From positions 28,376,466 through 28,440,465 of the forward strand of contig OX345636.1 in NCBI GenBank assembly GCA_947044365.1: DNA of 64,000 nucleotides, written 5' to 3'. Source of the stretch: Petrosia ficiformis. Its lineage: Eukaryota > Porifera > Demospongiae > Haplosclerida > Petrosiidae. The notes beneath the pieces are model-generated. The model saw only the letters and a program-made list of their open reading frames with translations. It did not search any database and was not told the origin of the DNA. Positions within the stretch are counted from its first letter, which is position 1, and each line of letters starts with the position of its first letter. Shown piece by piece: positions 11,178 to 21,665 of the stretch. The translations under genes were made by a program, and so were the position numbers.

Positions 11178-11489
11178 GAGTTGTTTCCTTTTATTTATAT
11201 TTGTGAACTAAAGTTTAAAAAAATTATTATTACATGTATTTTCAACAGGTTCAAGCTCCTTATCACAAGTTCTCAACATCACCGAGTCTTTCTACATCAT
11301 CACTGAACATCAAAATCTGTTATAAAACATTATAAAATGTTATTTATTTTTTAATGATTTTTAATGAGAATTTTCTCGCCATCCCACAAACAAGCACAGT
11401 TCTAACAGCTTCCGTATGGAACACCAAACAGGACAAAAATATGGAGTGCCATTAGGGTCAAAATAGTATTTAAAATGTCTGTGTTATGT

Positions 11490-11985
11490 GGTGAATATAT
11501 AAATCAACGTATTTATAAATACGTTGACGTATATAATAAATACGTCGACTTATTTGTAAATACATCGACATACTTATAAATACATCAATGTACTTATATA
11601 TACTGCAACGTACTTATAAAGACTGCAACTTATTTGTAACGTACTTATAAATACTGCAACTTATTTGTAAATACATCAATGTACTTATATATACTGCAAC
11701 GTACTTATAAAGACTGCAACTTATTTGTAACGTACTTATATATACTGCAACAAACTTATAAATACTGCTACTACTTATTTGTAAATACATCGACATAACT
11801 TATAAATACTGCAACTTATTTGTAAATAAATCAATGTACTTATGTATACTGCAATGTACTTATAAATACTGGAACTTATTTGTAAATACATCAACGTACT
11901 TATAAATACTGCTACTTATTTGTAAATACATCGACATAATTATAACTACTGCAACGTATTTGTAAATAAATCAACATACTTTTTT
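11490..11985. repeat. Left subterminal tandem array of element A
   Basis: About 500 bp of degenerate 18-40 bp units built from ACTTATAAATACTGCAACT, TTATTTGTAAATACATC and CGTACTTATA; many units are near-palindromic. The reverse-complement array is at 14325-14560. Confidence 0.9.
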
Positions 11986-12058
11986 ACACTCACAGAATTA
12001 CAATAATGTTATAATTATATATAAATGTTTGTGCTGACACAAGTATACATTAACAGAA

Positions 12059-13437
12059 ATGAATACAGCATCAAGTGCCTCTGCCTCTAGAGCTGGGAGT
12101 AAGGATGAGAGTTGTTAACTTGCCTGTAATAAACCATACAATTAATATTGTTATATAGGAAAGCGAATTGAGATCAACCGTTCACAAGTTGAGCAGCTTG
12201 TAACTATAGGAACACCATTTAAAAGGTAAGTTAATTGCTCTATATAATTATATCAGCATGTATATATTTAGTGTTTCTGCATAATTTCAGGATTACTATC
12301 ATAGTTGGAGTATATCATATTCCACTTTGAAAAGAAGACTTCGTGAATGGAATGTGAAAAGATCTTACTCTCAAATTTTTGAAGAAGCTTTGTGCTCCAG
12401 AATTGAGGACTGCATTAGTGGTTTACCAAATGCAGGAGAGAGAACAATCATTGGGCTTTTACGGTCACAAAGAATACATGTTCAAAGAGAAAGGTACATT
12501 TTTAATTATACAATGACATTTCAAAAATGTTTAAATATAAATTTGCATAATTATGCATTTTCAGATTGCGAAATACAATTCATACTCTACGACACCCTGT
12601 AGCAATGCATTCAAGACTGTGTCGACGAGTGCCAGGTCCAAATGCATTATGGCACTTGGATGGCCATCATAAGTTGATTCGATGGAACTTCGTTACACAT
12701 GGATGTATTGATGGCCATTCACGCCTGATTGTATATTTAAAATGCAATGTTAACAATACAGCTGAAACTGTTATGAACCTGTTCCATTCAGCTGTTTTAG
12801 AGTATGGATTACCTTCTCGGGTAAGAACAGACAAGGGGGGAGAAAATACACTTGTCTGGCAGTATATGACAGAAAACAAAGGTGATAATAGAGGTTCTTA
12901 CATTGCTGGATCAAGTGTACATAATACCAGAATTGAGAGGCTGCGGAGGGATGTTGGTGAACAGGTAGCATCTGTATTCTCAAATGTATTCCAAAGAATG
13001 ACAAATGAAGGATGTTTGGACAATACAAATCCTGTCGATTTGTACTGTTTGCATTTGGTATTCCTACCTGGAATAAATGAAGCTCTCAAAACATTTGTTT
13101 GCTCTTGGAATAACCATCCACTCAGAAATGAAAGGAATCGTTCACCCATGCAGATATTTGTAGAAGATAGTTCTCTTTATAATTCTGATAGTGAACATGT
13201 ATAGATTCACAATTCTATGGCAGAGACTTAGCTTCAGAAAATGATAACGCAAATAGAGGTGAAGTAAATACAGTGGATATACCAGAGACATCACTTCCTT
13301 TATCAAATGAACATTTGCAGGAACTGATAGATGCATACAATGCATCACCACAAGAAAAAGATTTGGTTGACATATATTCTGACATGCTAGGTCAGGCATG
13401 TCAACTTCTTGAAGAGGAAGGATATACATTGGAATAG
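12059..13437 (+). pseudogene. Integrase-type DDE transposase of element A
   Basis: Integrase-core transposase of the type common as multicopy genes in animals. A short first exon (from 12059) precedes GKRIEINRSQVEQLV and an HTH-like STLKRRLREWNV. A clean 77-nt intron lies at about 12494-12564 and joins GLLRSQRIHVQRE to the core: [19 protein letters not shown] (first Asp), [23 protein letters not shown] (second Asp), [14 protein letters not shown] (Glu). The C-terminal acidic tail (DIPETSLPLSNEHLQELI) is in another frame after about 13195, so a frameshift or small unspliced intron lies there; the tail ends at TAG 13435-13437. The residue normally W in RIERLWRD is R. Probably inactive or nearly so. 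Confidence 0.8.
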
Positions 13438-13757
13438 TATTATTAATCTTCTGTACCTCTTCCAGTATACATACATAATAAAATCAAAGCATGTTATAGA
13501 AACAGAACTAACTCTCACCTTGTATACTCATGCCAATAATTATAATTATAGTTCATATTTTTTATCAGTTATTCATGCAAAATACCAGCACCACAAGATC
13601 ACACATAATGAAGTGTATATAGGCTGTACTCATGATTAATAAAGAAAACAAAGTGACCATACATATAATTAAGTATATAACTATGTGTTAGAGTATATAT
13701 ATATATATATATATATATGAGAAAACCATAGTAATAAACTCCATTGCAACAATTAAA

Positions 13758-14286
13758 TTAAACAACAGTAAATGATTTCGATTCCTTTCGATATATAATA
13801 GAGCGTATAGAATTAGCAAAGTGATCATACTGATGTCTTACCAGAATCATCAATGTCTTGGAACAAGTTGAGCTATAAAAGTCTCCTTCAGAACTAAATT
13901 CGATGTTTACTGTGTTGCCAACAACACTTGTCAATCCAGTGACGAAATGCAGTAGCATCTTTAGTTCTGTGTGAAACAAAGAGAAGAAAATAAAAAAATT
14001 TAGTGGTATCCATAAAAAGTAGAAACACTTGAGTTTCAATATATATCCCACACGAATGTTTGTTAATAGTTAACAGCGTTTCAAAACAGAGGTAGTAAAA
14101 ACTCTATAGTTTATGACTAACCATCATCACTTGTGGAATCAATGAAGTACAACAAGGCGAGTGTGTTAAAGTGTTACTAGTGGAACGACCAGTAGGAGTA
14201 GAGAAATGGTTATTGATTTCTCTGCTTACAGCAGAAGCAATAGCTCCAGTCAAACGCTCGGTAGTGTCTCTGTCCATCAGCGGCAC
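13758..14286 (-). other. Two short minus-strand open frames of element A, function unknown
   Basis: Frame 1 (14286-14104) begins MPLMDRDTTERLTGAIASAV and is Ser/Thr-rich; frame 2 (14051-13758) begins after a possible acceptor TTTCACACAG and encodes HFVTGLTSVVGNTVNIEF. They may be two exons of a small gene. Their place and orientation (starting next to the TIR, convergent with the integrase) match those of the HECT gene in element B, so they could be a decayed or different cargo. I do not recognise the protein. Confidence 0.35.
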
Positions 14287-14324
14287 TCCACAATTACACG
14301 CTACTCACACTAATAATTATTGCT

Positions 14325-14560
14325 TCATCATGTACATCGTATAAATACGTTGCAGTATATATAAATACGTTTCAGTATATATAAGTATGTTGATGTATTT
14401 ACAAATAAGTAGCAGTATTTATAAGTACGTTGCAGTATATATAAGTACGTTGCAGTATTTATAAGTACGTTGCAGTATATATAAGTACTTCAATGTATTT
14501 ACAAATAAGTCGACGTATTTATTATAATATGCCAAAGTATTTATAAATACATTGGCTTAT
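14325..14560. repeat. Right subterminal tandem array of element A
   Basis: Units of ATATATAAGTACGTTGCAGT and TTTACAAATAAGT; reverse complement of the array at 11490-11985. Shorter than the left array, so copy number drifts between ends. Confidence 0.88.
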
Positions 14561-14654
14561 ATATTCACCACACTACGCAGACATTTAAATGCTATTTTGA
14601 CCTCAACGGCACTCCATACAAAAATACCAGTCCCGATTTACAAGTCTAAATAAC

Positions 14655-14870
14655 CAATTTTTGATTTTGAGTAATCGATTTTGAGTAACCGATTGTCGAT
14701 TATCGATTTTAGTAACCGATTGTCGATTATCGATTATCGATTTTGAGTTGAGTAATCGATTTTGAGTAACCGATTGTCGATTATCGATTATCAATTTTGA
14801 GTAACCGATTTTCGATTATCGATTTTCCATTTTGAGTTTTCGGAGTTTTCGATTATCGAATAAAAACTGT
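14655..14870. repeat. Left subterminal tandem array of element B
   Basis: Short units AGTAACCGATTGTCGATTAT and TCGATTTTGAG repeated in variable order, just inside the TIR and 5' to the HECT gene start at 14918. A reverse-complement array lies at 20505-20695. Confidence 0.9.
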
Positions 14871-14917
14871 GAACAGATTATAGAAACCACGTGCGTAAAA
14901 AACCGTTAACAATTTAA

Positions 14918-16475
14918 ATGGCGCTAACCCAAGAGGATTTGGAGAAGGCTAAAGAACTTCTTATCATCTCTTTCAGAACAGTCTGTGGCTTGTCCAAACC
15001 AAAGTAGAGAGCCATCAGTCTCAGAAAGCCAACCGTCTACAAGCAGTGGTAGAGGTAAGTAATCATTCCAGCATAAATTATTATTGTATGATAAAGAGCC
15101 GACAATATGAATATTCTAGTACAACTGTGAGCTATCTCCAAGTATATTATACTTGTTATAAAGGGATATGAAACGTTATGACAGTGTATCACAATATAAT
15201 TGTGATTATCATTCAATTTAGGATTCATAAGTACAAGATGTCAGGCTGTATTGGATAATTTAGCTAAAGTTCGATCTAATTTTGGCCAGAACAACCAAAC
15301 AAGAAGTAAACGTTATTCAGAAGTTGGCAAACTCTTTAAGTCATCCAAGAAATTAAAGATGACTACAAGAAAAATCACTCCTTGGACCCATCAATTTGTT
15401 TGCTTGTCAGACTGCAGTCAGCACTATATACCAACAACAGCTAGTCAGAAAGACACTTTGATGTCTGCTGGTCTTGGGAGAAAAAGATAGTTTTTGAAGA
15501 TGTTGATTGTTCTGCTGAAATACTTTGCTACAAAATTATCCTAAACTGAAAGAAGGAGGCGGATATCATCTCTGTAAATGCAAATCAAATTCAAGAGAAC
15601 TTGAGTCACTCTCATCAGCTGTTTTAGTTTCACCAAGGGCACTACAACAATGTGGTGGAAACTCACGAACATATATATAAGGCCATTGCAAAGAGATCTA
15701 GATTTATCTCGTGAAAATGAATCTACTGAGAAGATAGTAAGTGTTGTAGAGAAATTGTGTATTAAAGACTTTACATGTATGTTTTAGATTACAGAAGTGT
15801 GTCTTTCTTGTGGAAAAGATATCCCAATAGATGACTTAGAACTTCATGTTGTAGTTTGCAGAGTTGAAGATAGAAAGTCACCAAGGTATTAATGTAAAAT
15901 CAGAGTTTTTAAAAAGATATAATAATTATATAACAACAATCCTTATTGTGAATGTTACTCTCTTTATAATTATCATTGCCTATGTAAGTACTTTATTACA
16001 ATTCAAAACAAGTAAGAGAACTACAACATAAAGGCATCATAATCTGAACATTATATACCTTGAAGGTACAAATATTTAAACAGACTATATTTAGTGAAAT
16101 GCTGCTAATGGAGATTTTAATTAATTTTAGCGATTTCAAAAAAATCTAATTAAAAATTCATAACTCAATAATACAGCCCTCACAGAGGGCATGCGAAAAA
16201 GTCAATTGTTACTTACAAAAGCCTAACAAACACTGCTAAAGCACTATTTCAGCTGATCATGTGTTCGAAATTATGGGCGTGGCACGTAAGTTATTTAATT
16301 AATTGATAATTCAGTATGCAAAATTTTGCAATACTGTACTGCACTATAGGAAAGAATTAATTATATTCATAACAAATTATTCACAATGATTATTATTAAC
16401 GTGTATAAAATTTTGCGTTTTTATTAAGCTCGCTAAAAATCGCTAAAATTAATACCCGCAAATTATAGTAACATT

Positions 16476-16518
<43 letters not shown>

Positions 16519-18489
16519 TCATTAGACAGGGCAAGGGCCCTGCACCAGTACAACAATAAGCACTATATAATTATATAGGGCAACAGGCCAACTATAAATT
16601 AACACATGGTCATTACATAAAACTTGATTCATTACACCTACACTCTTTTTTTAATCAAGTTCTGAATTGATTGACATCTCTGATGATGATGATTTACCAA
16701 AATATCCTGCTTTTAGTGTTGATATTGATGATGCTCGATCACCATTTCACTCAATAAATCAAGAGTAAGTTCATACAAATTATTGTGTCAACAGAAATTT
16801 TACACCATCAAATGGTTACGGTAGCTCTTCTCACTTAATGATACCGACTCTTTCGAATGATGTTCAGTAGTAAGTAATCTATTAAATCACTCCTGTATAT
16901 AGGCATCAGTGTTTTAATAAAGTCTTGTAGGCATCCTAAATTATAATTTAAGATTTTTAATCCTATAGCAATAAATACAGCTCTCCGACTCCTCCACCCT
17001 ATTCACCTGTTGCGCAGTGAGTTTGATATTTACGTGTTTGCTGTTTGTCATACAAATTATTACAGATATCCTGCAGTAAACATATCACTCAGTGCCATAA
17101 TTAAAATGATTCAAAAGAAGTTTAATATTGACATGTCTCCAGAATGCGAAAGTAAGTTGATTTTAGAAATCAGAAGGACTGATGTCATAGAAGATGCATT
17201 AATGCATGCATCAAAAAAGAAGTTTTGTCCTACTAAGACCCTCAAAGTATGTACACAGGTCACCATTACCTATATATTTACTTATGCTTTGCTTATAATT
17301 GGCAGATAATTTTTGTTGGTGAATCAGGAGAAGATACTGGTGGTCTCCGTCGCGAGTTTTTCCATCTTTTATGTCATGGTATAACTGAAAATTACTTTAT
17401 TGGAACGGATTATATTAAAACCTTCCAGCAGAATGTACCAGCATTACAGGTATTAATTTAAATGCAAAATTATTTTAAGTACACTGCTTCATTATAACAG
17501 AAAAACATTTTCAAGTATCTTGGTATATGGACAGCGATGTCCATTACTCAGGATGGTCCTGGGCTCCCTGTACTTATGCCTGCATTATATGAATACATGA
17601 TTTCAAGAGATTTGACTTCAGATAGCACTATTAAAAATGATGAAATTCCTGATCTTTATGTCAAGGGATTGATTGAATTAGTAAGCTGTATATAGAGTCA
17701 GTAAACCATTATCTGAATAATTGCACTTTGCCATTTATATAGATCATATCTGCATCTGATAACAAACAGCTTCAAGCAATTTTTTCTGATGAGTTATATA
17801 GTAGTTTACTAATTGAAACAGGTTACTGTAAGTCCCTTTTACATATCACTACAGCTGATGCTGAACATGTAGTTGATATTTTAAAGAGGTATCACTGCCT
17901 TATCAAAGTGAAGGCCCAGATAGACCAATTCATTGATGGTCTTCATTGCCTTGAAATTGATGCAATGATACAGCAATATCCAGATAAATTGAAACCTTTA
18001 TTTGTAGATGATATCTGTAAACGAACTATTACACCAGGTTTGTAAACATGAATTTTGTTAACAACATGCACATCATACATTCTCCATTAATTTTTTCCTA
18101 GACTATATTAAATCTTTAGTAGTAGCTCATTTTTCACCAAAAGAGAATCAAGAAAAACGGAAAAAAGAGGAGGCTATGTACATGTACTTTGTAAACTTCT
18201 TGGATGAATGTGAAGGTTATTTTCAGCAACAAATACAATAATCACAAACTTACTATAATATCTTTACACAGAAGGAACTACAGATGTTAGTATGGGGGAG
18301 ATATTGTCGTTTTTCACTGGTTCTGAGCGTGAGCCACCATTGGGCTTCCCATATATCCCAACTTTATTATTTGATGAAAAAAATACATTGGCAACTTCCT
18401 CAACATGCTCTCTTACTTTAACCCTACCTGTTCATAAAGATTACAACACTTTTAAAGAAAAATTGATCTTATCCTTTAAAGGGACATGA
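14918..18489 (+). CDS. Transposon-borne G2E3-like HECT E3 ubiquitin ligase (12 exons, damaged 5')
   Basis: A HECT-type ligase accepts ubiquitin on a cysteine and passes it to substrates. My exon reading: 14918-15054, 15222-15736, 15788-15885, 16660-16764, 16795-16869, 16969-17016, 17066-17246, 17306-17449, 17501-17680, 17743-18037, 18102-18215, 18272-18489. The N-terminal module has HQFVCLSD and LMSAGLG; exon 3 is a UBZ-like finger, CLSCGKDIPIDDLELHVVVC; exons 4-6 are an acidic Ser/Pro linker; the HECT domain has VGESGEDTGGLRREFFHLL, FFTGSEREPPLGF and the presumed catalytic Cys in SSTCSLTLTLP. Apparent one-base frameshifts at about 14960 and 15485 break the N-terminus, while the HECT exons are open. 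The 770-bp intron 3 holds AT-rich MITE-like sequence and (TA)n at 16480-16514. It lies convergent with the integrase inside element B. It resembles multicopy G2E3-like genes in other animals. Confidence 0.85.
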
Positions 18490-18999
18490 TGGTTTTGGAG
18501 TTATTTGAACAGATCATTGTTATAGACTTGTTGAGTTGTATTCATCCATCCCAGAGTTTAGACTGGTGAATCGTATTGTACTTGGATTCAGAACTTGTAA
18601 CCAGTTTGCAGTGGTGTTGAATTAGTACTAGTTGTGTTGAATTAGAACTTATTTATAGTAATTTAATAATATAAGAAACTGACCAAATAATTATTATATG
18701 AACTGGACATGTACACTGCACTGCATTTAAGTAAGTGGTGAACATCACTGCCAATCAACTACCATACAATGTAGTGAACAACACTACATAGGAGTAGGTG
18801 TGGTTCATTTTGATACATGTTTGTAGTATAGCTGGCTGCTCTTCTAGAAGGCATATTATCTGTTGGTGGGACCACTTACACATGCCTCCACATGTGCAAT
18901 TTGAAAAATTGAAACTCAAAATTTTGTATATAAAACATGAAGTATAATTTTTTATTATGATTTGTAATAGTCTGAATAATAACTGAACCAATACAGTTT
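18490..18999. other. Intergenic space between the two convergent genes of element B
   Basis: About 510 bp between the HECT stop (18489) and the integrase stop (19000-19002). AT-rich, likely holding both 3' ends. No further gene seen. Confidence 0.6.
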
Positions 19000-20490
19000 T
19001 CATGCAGTGTTATGGTCTTCAGAAAGACAAGACAAAACATAATGCTTAACATTAATATACTGTTGTATCCAGATGTGATGATTAGATTGAAGACACACTA
19101 GGTCACTGCTCCCGAGTGTCATCTGAACAATTATGCTGTCAAGATTGGCTAATTGTGTCTGATCAAGTAAAGCTGGTAGTTCCGGTACGTGAACAGTTTC
19201 ATCAATATCTCCTGCAATTAGTTCATTCCAATCATTACCATAATCATCGTAATTAACCTAATAAAAATGGTGTAATTTCATTTCAGTTGCATTAGCTGAA
19301 CTAACCTCTTCAATTGGTGGTTGAATTTCTGATATCCACAACTGTAGTGGTGTTTTATTATGCTCAGTTCGCAAGCGATGATTACACCATCCATGTCTAA
19401 ATTGGTCCAAATGAGTCTGGATCTTGGAAAGAAAAACCATATGTAATACATAAAGGTCAACATTGGAATTTGGATTCAACAGCCCTTCCTCTTCCATTGC
19501 ATAAAATAAGTAATAGTAACAACTAACGCATCCAGCAAATAAGTCACGCCATAACCGTTCGATTCTTTGGTTATGGACACTTCTGCCAGTTATCATGCTT
19601 CCACGGCCACTTCCCCTGTGACTGATCTTAAAATGTGCTATCAACACATTCTCTCCTCCATAATCACTTCTTACTCTCAAAGGAATGTTGTAGTTTTCAA
19701 CACCTTCAAGGAAAGCATCAAAAGCTGTCTCTGCTTTGCTATTTGTAGCAACTTTAAGATACACGACTAATCGGCTATATCCATCTATCCCTCCATGAAT
19801 TACAAATTTCCATCTTATCAATTTGTGATAGCCATCAACATGCCATAAATGATTTGGTCCTGCAACATTATAAACTCTTCTATGTAGAGCTCTTGTCGAT
19901 CGGGATTTAGTTCCTTCTGGATCAGCAAAATAAAGTGCTTCTCTGACTCTGCGCCTTTGTACATGAATATTCTGACTTCTGAGAAGACCATCTATGCTCT
20001 TTTCTCCTAAATTTGAATTTTCATCAGTCCATCTAGTAATCTTTTGGACTAACTCATCATCAGAAATCTGTGAATAAAAGTCGCTTTTAGTCAATCCAGC
20101 CTCCCTTAAACGACGCTGGATTGTTTTTTCTGAACAACAATAAATATCAGCTATGGCAACAGTTGTAAATCCATGCTGGATGAAAAATGCCACTTGACGG
20201 GAAGTGATTATTAATTTTGGTCATCCAACTTGCCCTCTTACTACAGTTTCAAACATGCCTAATAGTGCATCCCTGATCTCTTGTATCATGCCTACAACTT
20301 CACGGCCTACAGTAGCCTCCATAAATAAAGCACATTGCAGTAAGTCATCAGAAATTTCTACCAGATTCTGAACATCAGCATTTTCTCTGGCTATTTCAAG
20401 TTTTATGAACAATATTCCATCTGAAATGGTATCCATTTTGATTCCTGTCACGTGCACATCACTTGCATGTACTAAAAAAAACAAAAACAA
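19000..20490 (-). pseudogene. Integrase-type DDE transposase of element B (one stop codon)
   Basis: Presumed transposase of element B. The N-terminal segment (20490-20222) is followed by a TGA at 20219-20221 where the family has Arg (GRPKLIITSRQ), consistent with CGA to TGA CpG decay. After it comes an HTH (CCSEKTIQRRLREAGL), then NHLWHVDGYHKLIRWKF (first Asp), RVRSDYGGEN (second Asp) and SVHNQRIERLWRD (Glu). The long frame runs 20193-19258. A 48-nt intron (GTTAGT...TTATTAG, about 19258-19305) joins the acidic tail VNYDDYGNDWNELIAGD, open for 87 codons to 19000. Apart from the single stop everything expected is present. Convergent with the HECT gene. Confidence 0.88.
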
Positions 20491-20504
20491 AAAAAAGGAG
20501 AACT

Positions 20505-20695
20505 GAAAATCTAAAATCGGTTACTCAATATCGATAATCGATAATCGACAATCGGTTACTCAAAATCTAAAATCGGTAATCGACAATCAGTTACTCAAAA
20601 TCTAAAATCTAAAATCGGTTACTCAAAATCTAAAATCGGTTACTCAAAATCGACAACCGGTTACTCAAAATCTAAAATTGGTTATTTAGACTTGT
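20505..20695. repeat. Right subterminal tandem array of element B
   Basis: Units ATCGGTTACTCAAAATCTAA and ATAATCGACAATCGG; reverse complement of 14655-14870. It sits directly upstream of the integrase start, so it could also influence its promoter. Confidence 0.9.
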
Positions 20696-21665
20696 AAATC
20701 GAGACTGGTATTTTTGTCCTGTTTGGCATTCCATACTTCCGATCTTCAATAAACAAGCACAGTTCTAAAAGTTTCCAGATTTCAATAGCACATGTGCTAT
20801 AAAACGTTTTCAATTTTAATAGTAGAATTGCTACGGAAAGTTTCCGGACCGGGTGTTGAAAGTGATTGGAGTCACATCCACTCCCTAGTACCACCTTAAC
20901 CCTTAGCGGGCGACGCCCATTTAATTAAACGTGATCTCGTTAAAAAACGGGTGATTTTTAGCAAAGAAGGACTTTGCGTGCTGCTCTCTTTTCAGACTAT
21001 TTAACCAGTTTTAAATGTTTTTCTACTATTTGTGAACTTTCTACGTTCACAGTGACTCAGAGCGCCCTATAGGGGAAATGTGGCAATTATGGAACACTTA
21101 AGTTCAAAGTGCAATATCTTTGCTTGTAGGTGTTCCTACCACACCCAATCTGATCTCAAGAATATTTCAACACACTATTATATCTTCACCAAATATCAAG
21201 AATTTTTAATTATATCAAAACAATTTCACAGGAAATACTACTCATATGGGATATTATGGTACACCCTAGGGGGTTATGAAACACAAACAAAAATCTACTA
21301 AATAAGGACACAATATTTTAAGTATGACAGTCAAAGCACAAAAAAACATCTGGAATACATTGATCATCAGTATGTACACAAGAGGTGTGGAACCAAAGTG
21401 TACATTCATTACATTCAATCCAAAGCTTATCATCAGTACCATACTTGACATCACAAATACCACATGAACACTCATCCACATCTGATTCAGAATTAGTGCT
21501 TGTATCATTGTCTAGTAGAGCTTGAACTTGAGGCCTTGAGTGAACAGCTACAGTCTGTTTTCGGTTGCCAGGAGTCCTGACCTTGGGCTTAGAGTGGGAT
21601 TTAGACTTGGATTTAGACTTGGGCTTAGATTGCTTTGGTTTAGACTTAATTTTGGTCGTCCCTTT

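Follow-up and report, generated by a model that had tools for sequence, protein, structure and literature searches.

The window analyzed here is a 64,000-nucleotide stretch of the genome of the sponge Petrosia ficiformis (191,215,263 bases), located on contig 1 (chromosome 1; OX345636.1) at 28.38–28.44 Mb. Positions 11415–20735 of this window are an IS3EU-type DNA transposon, which carries a transposase gene and, convergent to it, a 12-exon gene for a HECT E3 ubiquitin ligase. A second element is nested in it. The features of the outer element are as follows, with exons mapped from a sister copy (copy D, described below).

11409..11414: left target-site duplication (TSD), CTTCCG, read from the sequence
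11415..20735, plus strand: outer IS3EU-type element, placed by its ends, TSD, sister copies and an empty site
11415..11439, plus strand: left terminal inverted repeat, first 25 nt, resuming at 14625 past the nested element
14918..18508, plus strand: HECT gene, 12 exons
14918-15054, 15222-15736, 15788-15885, 16660-16764, 16795-16869, 16969-17016, plus strand: HECT exons 1-6
17066-17246, 17306-17449, 17501-17680, 17743-18037, 18102-18215, 18272-18508, plus strand: HECT exons 7-12
15222..15736, plus strand: exon 2, diverged form of a conserved N-terminal domain
16660..16764, plus strand: exon 4, acidic linker with the putative SUMO-binding-like motif LIDISDDDD
18406..18408, plus strand: catalytic cysteine codon TGC in the HECT C-lobe
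19258..20220, minus strand: outer transposase, main open stretch of 320 amino acids with the DDE core
20221..20520, minus strand: upstream part of the transposase frame, ending in a TGA stop at 20221-20223
20646..20735, minus strand: right terminal inverted repeat, about 90 nt at ≥85% identity
20736..20741: right TSD, CTTCCG

The outer element starts with TATGG and ends with CCATA. Its inverted repeat extends over about 90 nt with at least 85% identity when the nested element is skipped, and CTTCCG flanks it on both sides. A paralogous empty site (C1:49288852-49288959) shares 94% identity with the joined flanks over positions 15–122 of 122, spanning the junction. These observations confirm the matching inverted repeats and 6-bp TSD described in an earlier note on this DNA. 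The length, 6136 bp after removal of the nested element and of that element's extra TSD copy, also agrees with the 6.1 kb given there, and the class, called IS3-like, is refined to the IS3EU superfamily. In the genome, TATGGARTGCC occurs 231 times compared with 57 times for the reversed control pattern, a count above chance. Similar repeat units (AACAAGCACAGTTCTAA...) are present in both flanks (20742–20845 and, on the left, before 11409), and 20766–20845 is a tandem array with a period of 34; the outer element therefore appears to have inserted into an older repeat.

The passages on IS3EU/GingerRoot in PMC10045372 describe an integrase-like DDE transposase, 6-bp TSDs and TA..TA termini, all of which recur in the sponge element. 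The outer transposase, predicted earlier as an integrase-type protein, lies on the minus strand and matches Pfam rva_4 (E 8e-80); its match to rve (1.7e-6) is under the curated cut-off of that family. Perfect 6-bp TSDs and the termini TATGG..CCATA were found in the same nine complete elements. Judged by its sequence, the element has every IS3EU feature that could be checked. The window transposase has a single in-frame stop (20221-20223), and the frame in sister copy B is open across 419 amino acids. The window HECT gene contains five frameshifting indels across the mapped exons. The outer element in the window is a dead copy.

The HECT gene was best read in copy D, where exon borders are GT-AG and 714 amino acids are uninterrupted by a stop. 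The copy D protein matches Pfam HECT at E 6.6e-15 (56 bits; cut-off 23.9), in line with the earlier description of a 12-exon gene convergent to the transposase, and the catalytic cysteine noted at that time is also present. The HECT domain can be aligned along its whole length, catalytic cysteine included, with the solved HECT ligases AREL1 and Rsp5. It shares the bilobal HECT fold and the aligned cysteine with AREL1, Rsp5 and E6AP, but differs from them in its N-terminal domain and in sitting inside transposons. The cysteine was found in all 17 family representatives in which the C-lobe was read (16 used in the trees below plus C2_8723). Pfam, the alignment with solved structures and this residue all point to a HECT E3 ligase. 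Among 28 transposon C-lobe rows, copies C14 and C4 are frameshifted in this region and C1_29327 does not cover it. Intron 3 of the window copy contains 424 nt (16058..16481) with no counterpart in copies B and D, possibly a small insertion.

Two domain assignments of the earlier note are unproven. A UBZ-like finger had been proposed, and exon 3 of copy D does contain a CxxC..H..C stretch, yet Pfam at E up to 0.1 reports only HECT in the 714-amino-acid protein, neither a PHD finger nor UBZ. G2E3 is a HECT protein with N-terminal PHD fingers, and G2E3-like HECT genes are multicopy. The sponge gene resembles them in its HECT domain and in being multicopy, but with no PHD finger match the label G2E3-like is not substantiated. 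With the 714-amino-acid protein as query, no relative at E ≤ 0.001 was retrieved among 7993 candidates scored.

The nested element, which escaped the earlier note as did the frame breaks in the HECT gene, is an independent transposon with its own ends.

11434-11439 and 14619-14624: TSD CAAAAA of the nested element
11440..14618, plus strand: nested second element, an internal-deletion derivative of the C2:12780126-12785961 type
12305..13159 (12305-12493 + 12565-13159), plus strand: nested transposase fragment, Pfam rva_4
13758..14069, minus strand: HECT C-lobe remnant with an STC motif, open stretch
14104..14304, minus strand: remnant of the first HECT coding exon, open stretch

It shares 95% identity across 2.4 kb with C2:12780126-12785961 and has lost approximately 2.7 kb of the middle. 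Since it keeps HECT remnants, the outer and the nested element are both of a HECT-carrying kind.

Further copies with both genes, which the earlier note had proposed to look for, were found. Copy B (C1:8911686-8917132, TSD GCAGAA) and copy D (C1:28766834-28772594, TSD GTTTTC in HECT orientation) are each a complete element with its own 6-bp TSD, and in each the two genes converge as they do in the window. Copy C (C1:25981072 onwards) shows a single end together with a portion of the HECT gene. These three copies share 94–98% identity with the window copy in the aligned pieces across the gene regions, a range computed without the low-identity pieces in the terminal repeats. At none of the four loci of the window family do both genes appear intact: in copy B 52 nt are missing from the last HECT exon, copy C lacks the first HECT exons, and copy D has one transposase frameshift. 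Seven further, divergent elements from five families were examined, with transposases sharing 36–61% identity with the window transposase by aligned piece. All seven contain HECT sequence, six of them having been picked for a nearby Pfam HECT match and F2 not. F80, F32 and F11 represent one family. The complete ones with a perfect TSD are F80 (GACGTA), F32 (TGTAAT), F18 (GAAACT), F2 (GTTTTG) and F76 (AACAAT, with a partial HECT gene). Among the nine complete elements, both genes are present in eight, including F76 with its partial HECT gene; the remaining one, the nested deletion derivative, keeps HECT remnants. Around eight near-identical F76-type transposases, HECT sequence lies within 6 kb in six and was not detected in two.

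A genome-wide search was performed for both genes, with all match counts being lower bounds. The 128 transposase matches were clustered into 93 loci. HECT matches (95 by Pfam, 107 and 45 from two element-derived HECT queries) were likewise clustered into 93 loci. HECT sequence was detected within 5 kb of 51 of the 93 transposase loci, and 51 of the 93 HECT loci lie within 5 kb of a transposase, compared with a mean of 0.65 and a maximum of 4 in 2000 shuffles of HECT positions within contigs. Because the element-derived queries favour transposon HECTs, Pfam matches alone were used as a control for this bias; of these 95, 26 have a transposase nearby, against a shuffle mean of 0.4 and a maximum of 4. 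Chance proximity of HECT to transposase is rejected by both shuffles. The convergent order given in the earlier note holds for 41 of the 51 paired transposase loci and fails in the remainder, nine of which are divergent and one tandem. The transposase loci are unevenly distributed: chromosome 1 makes up a third of the genome and contains 67 of the 93 (binomial p 2e-14), and 38 of the 93 start between 23 and 34 Mb of this chromosome, an interval picked post hoc that includes the window.

To compare the histories of the two genes, trees were built from 16 family representatives, which were picked because HECT had been found; for C1_40517, the transposase was taken from a close relative on C14. 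The transposase and HECT trees have 6 of 13 splits in common and their patristic distances correlate with r 0.74, and none of 5000 label permutations attained either value. This comparison, suggested in the earlier note, shows trees that are largely congruent. The dN/dS check (ratio of nonsynonymous to synonymous substitution rates) suggested with it also agrees: between families, HECT dN/dS is 0.12–0.25 in four of six pairs with dS > 2, dS not being computable for the other two. Within families, nine of 11 HECT pairs fall at 0.19–0.57, one exceeds 1 (F2/C1_28735, with one silent change) and one has no silent change. The within-family transposase pairs lie between 0 and 1.4. Purifying selection and retention of the cysteine support the view that the HECT protein is kept as a working enzyme, as far as can be judged at the sequence level.

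Two observations count against a HECT gene that is regularly inherited with the transposase. First, 42 of the 93 transposase loci have no HECT detected within 5 kb, five of these being distant transposases with 23–26% identity. Second, the trees conflict at a single deep clade: F76 and C1_24325 join the D clade by their transposases but the F80/F18 clade by their HECT genes, and exchange is possible there. The loci without a detected HECT, together with several broken HECT copies and within-family dN/dS values that are not low and in one pair exceed 1, would fit a host gene that was merely flanked, or captured once by chance, with no role for the transposon. We consider this very improbable, given the different TSDs around the same two genes at several loci, the empty site, the linkage seen in 16 families, the large agreement of the two trees, and the purifying selection between families with the cysteine retained. 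The discordant placement of F76 and C1_24325 could also mean that recombination carries HECT from one transposon family to another, with only a loose tie to any single transposase, as fungal TET/JBP genes are described to move between superfamilies in PMC12730594. Such free movement is a decidedly unlikely explanation overall, considering the shared splits, the distance correlation and the permutations. The different TSDs, divergent families, congruent trees and dN/dS values bear out the earlier proposal of a ligase that belongs regularly to the transposon lineage, rather than a host gene hit by chance. The element is very probably a two-gene IS3EU-type sponge transposon with a co-inherited and selected HECT ligase.

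The N-terminal domain of the HECT protein is uncharacterised and, according to its structure model, possibly ubiquitin-like. The model has a predicted local distance difference test score (pLDDT) of 93.9, and its Foldseek structure matches are mostly beta-grasp, none at E ≤ 0.001. Some of the ubiquitin-like-domain matches, again none at that threshold, are from USP7, a nuclear ubiquitin enzyme. In a database search, the domain matched 382 proteins and is widespread. For 18 of 26 N-domain sites in the genome, a transposase or HECT locus lies no more than 5 kb away; for the other eight, none does. One N-domain copy at C10:3248289-3248660 is identical to that of the C18 element and has neither a HECT nor a transposase match within 5 kb. 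Another site, C1:12030799-12032027, is a HECT locus adjoining an N-domain, with one stop in the core and no transposase match within 5 kb. Stretches that may be SUMO-interacting motifs were seen in copy D (LIDISDDDD) and, picked by eye, in F18 (EIIISDDE) and F80 (INLVEDSD).

The transposase query retrieved 6122 relatives among 7992 candidates scored. Named sources among the listed matches include the sponges Corticium candelabrum and Dysidea avara and the coral Porites lobata. Comparison of 120 listed N-domain matches with 120 listed transposase matches revealed five contig sizes above 3500 in common (4158, 5051, 6034, 2548678 and 10003546); jittered values gave 0.06 on average and 3 at most. 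Going solely by equal contig size, this suggests that both genes occur on the same contigs in other samples. The 10003546 contig encodes a protein identical to the window-family transposase and may be Petrosia itself. In the viral contigs searched, no relative of the transposase or the N-domain was found.

Among known systems, the IS3EU passages of PMC10045372 mention neither ubiquitin nor HECT, whereas in the sponge element HECT is regularly present as the second gene. Fungal TET+ IS3EU elements, according to PMC12730594, resemble the sponge element in their TAYGG..CCRTA ends, 6-bp TSDs and accessory genes; in them, a TET/JBP gene sits between the transposase and an alpha-kinase gene that faces it. 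Their cargo is a TET/JBP dioxygenase and an alpha-kinase, while the sponge cargo is a HECT ligase. Accessory genes are thus already known in the IS3EU superfamily. An unclassified repetitive element with raised copy number and a G2E3 match in Cottus fish, described in PMC5638112, is possibly the same kind of cargo. PMC4255032 and PMC4284660, searched for HECT, yielded nothing relevant. In our literature searches no published report of HECT cargo in transposons was found; Repbase was outside these searches and may hold such an entry.

From the anatomy of the element, the DDE transposase would act on the TATGG...CCATA ends and leave 6-bp duplications. The second gene encodes a HECT E3 ubiquitin ligase made up of the perhaps ubiquitin-like N-terminal domain, the acidic linker and the C-lobe with its catalytic cysteine. 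Linkage and trees show that HECT was gained before the sampled families split and was then mostly inherited with the transposase. The ligase may target for ubiquitylation those host proteins by which the element is silenced; these could be SUMO-marked chromatin factors, which the SUMO-binding-like motifs of the linker would bring within its reach. This role, which would parallel the TET/JBP dioxygenase found in some fungal IS3EU elements, has in our estimate a little less than an even chance, and it is our leading guess in a ranking that continues with autoregulation and repair. In autoregulation, the ligase would ubiquitylate its own transposase, setting its turnover or removing it from the ends after strand transfer. 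The tight gene pairing and largely congruent trees fit partners in contact, but linked inheritance by itself also yields congruent trees, and convergent and divergent arrangements both exist, so that no shared transcription unit is needed; we regard autoregulation as rather unlikely. Cut-and-paste elements depend on host repair, which gives general plausibility to a ligase directed at DNA-repair or replication factors of the host, one that would bias the mending of excision and insertion gaps towards the element. The USP7 matches are weakly in line with this, but Pfam finds no repair-specific domain, and we judge a repair role to be unlikely.

More broadly, and tentatively, at less than even odds, a transposase plus a ubiquitin-like-domain HECT protein may be the standard body plan throughout a large IS3EU clade of sponges and, perhaps, of further aquatic animals. 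The ligase would then act as an anti-defence effector by removing silencing factors linked to SUMO, and many of the multicopy HECT genes that annotation reports for such animals would be transposon cargo. With a ubiquitin ligase retained as its own, a DNA transposon would represent a selfish element of eukaryotes that edits the host proteome. Which host proteins the ligase removes, and whether these take part in the silencing of DNA transposons, become testable questions. For annotation, caution is warranted, as some lineage-specific HECT expansions may be transposon genes.

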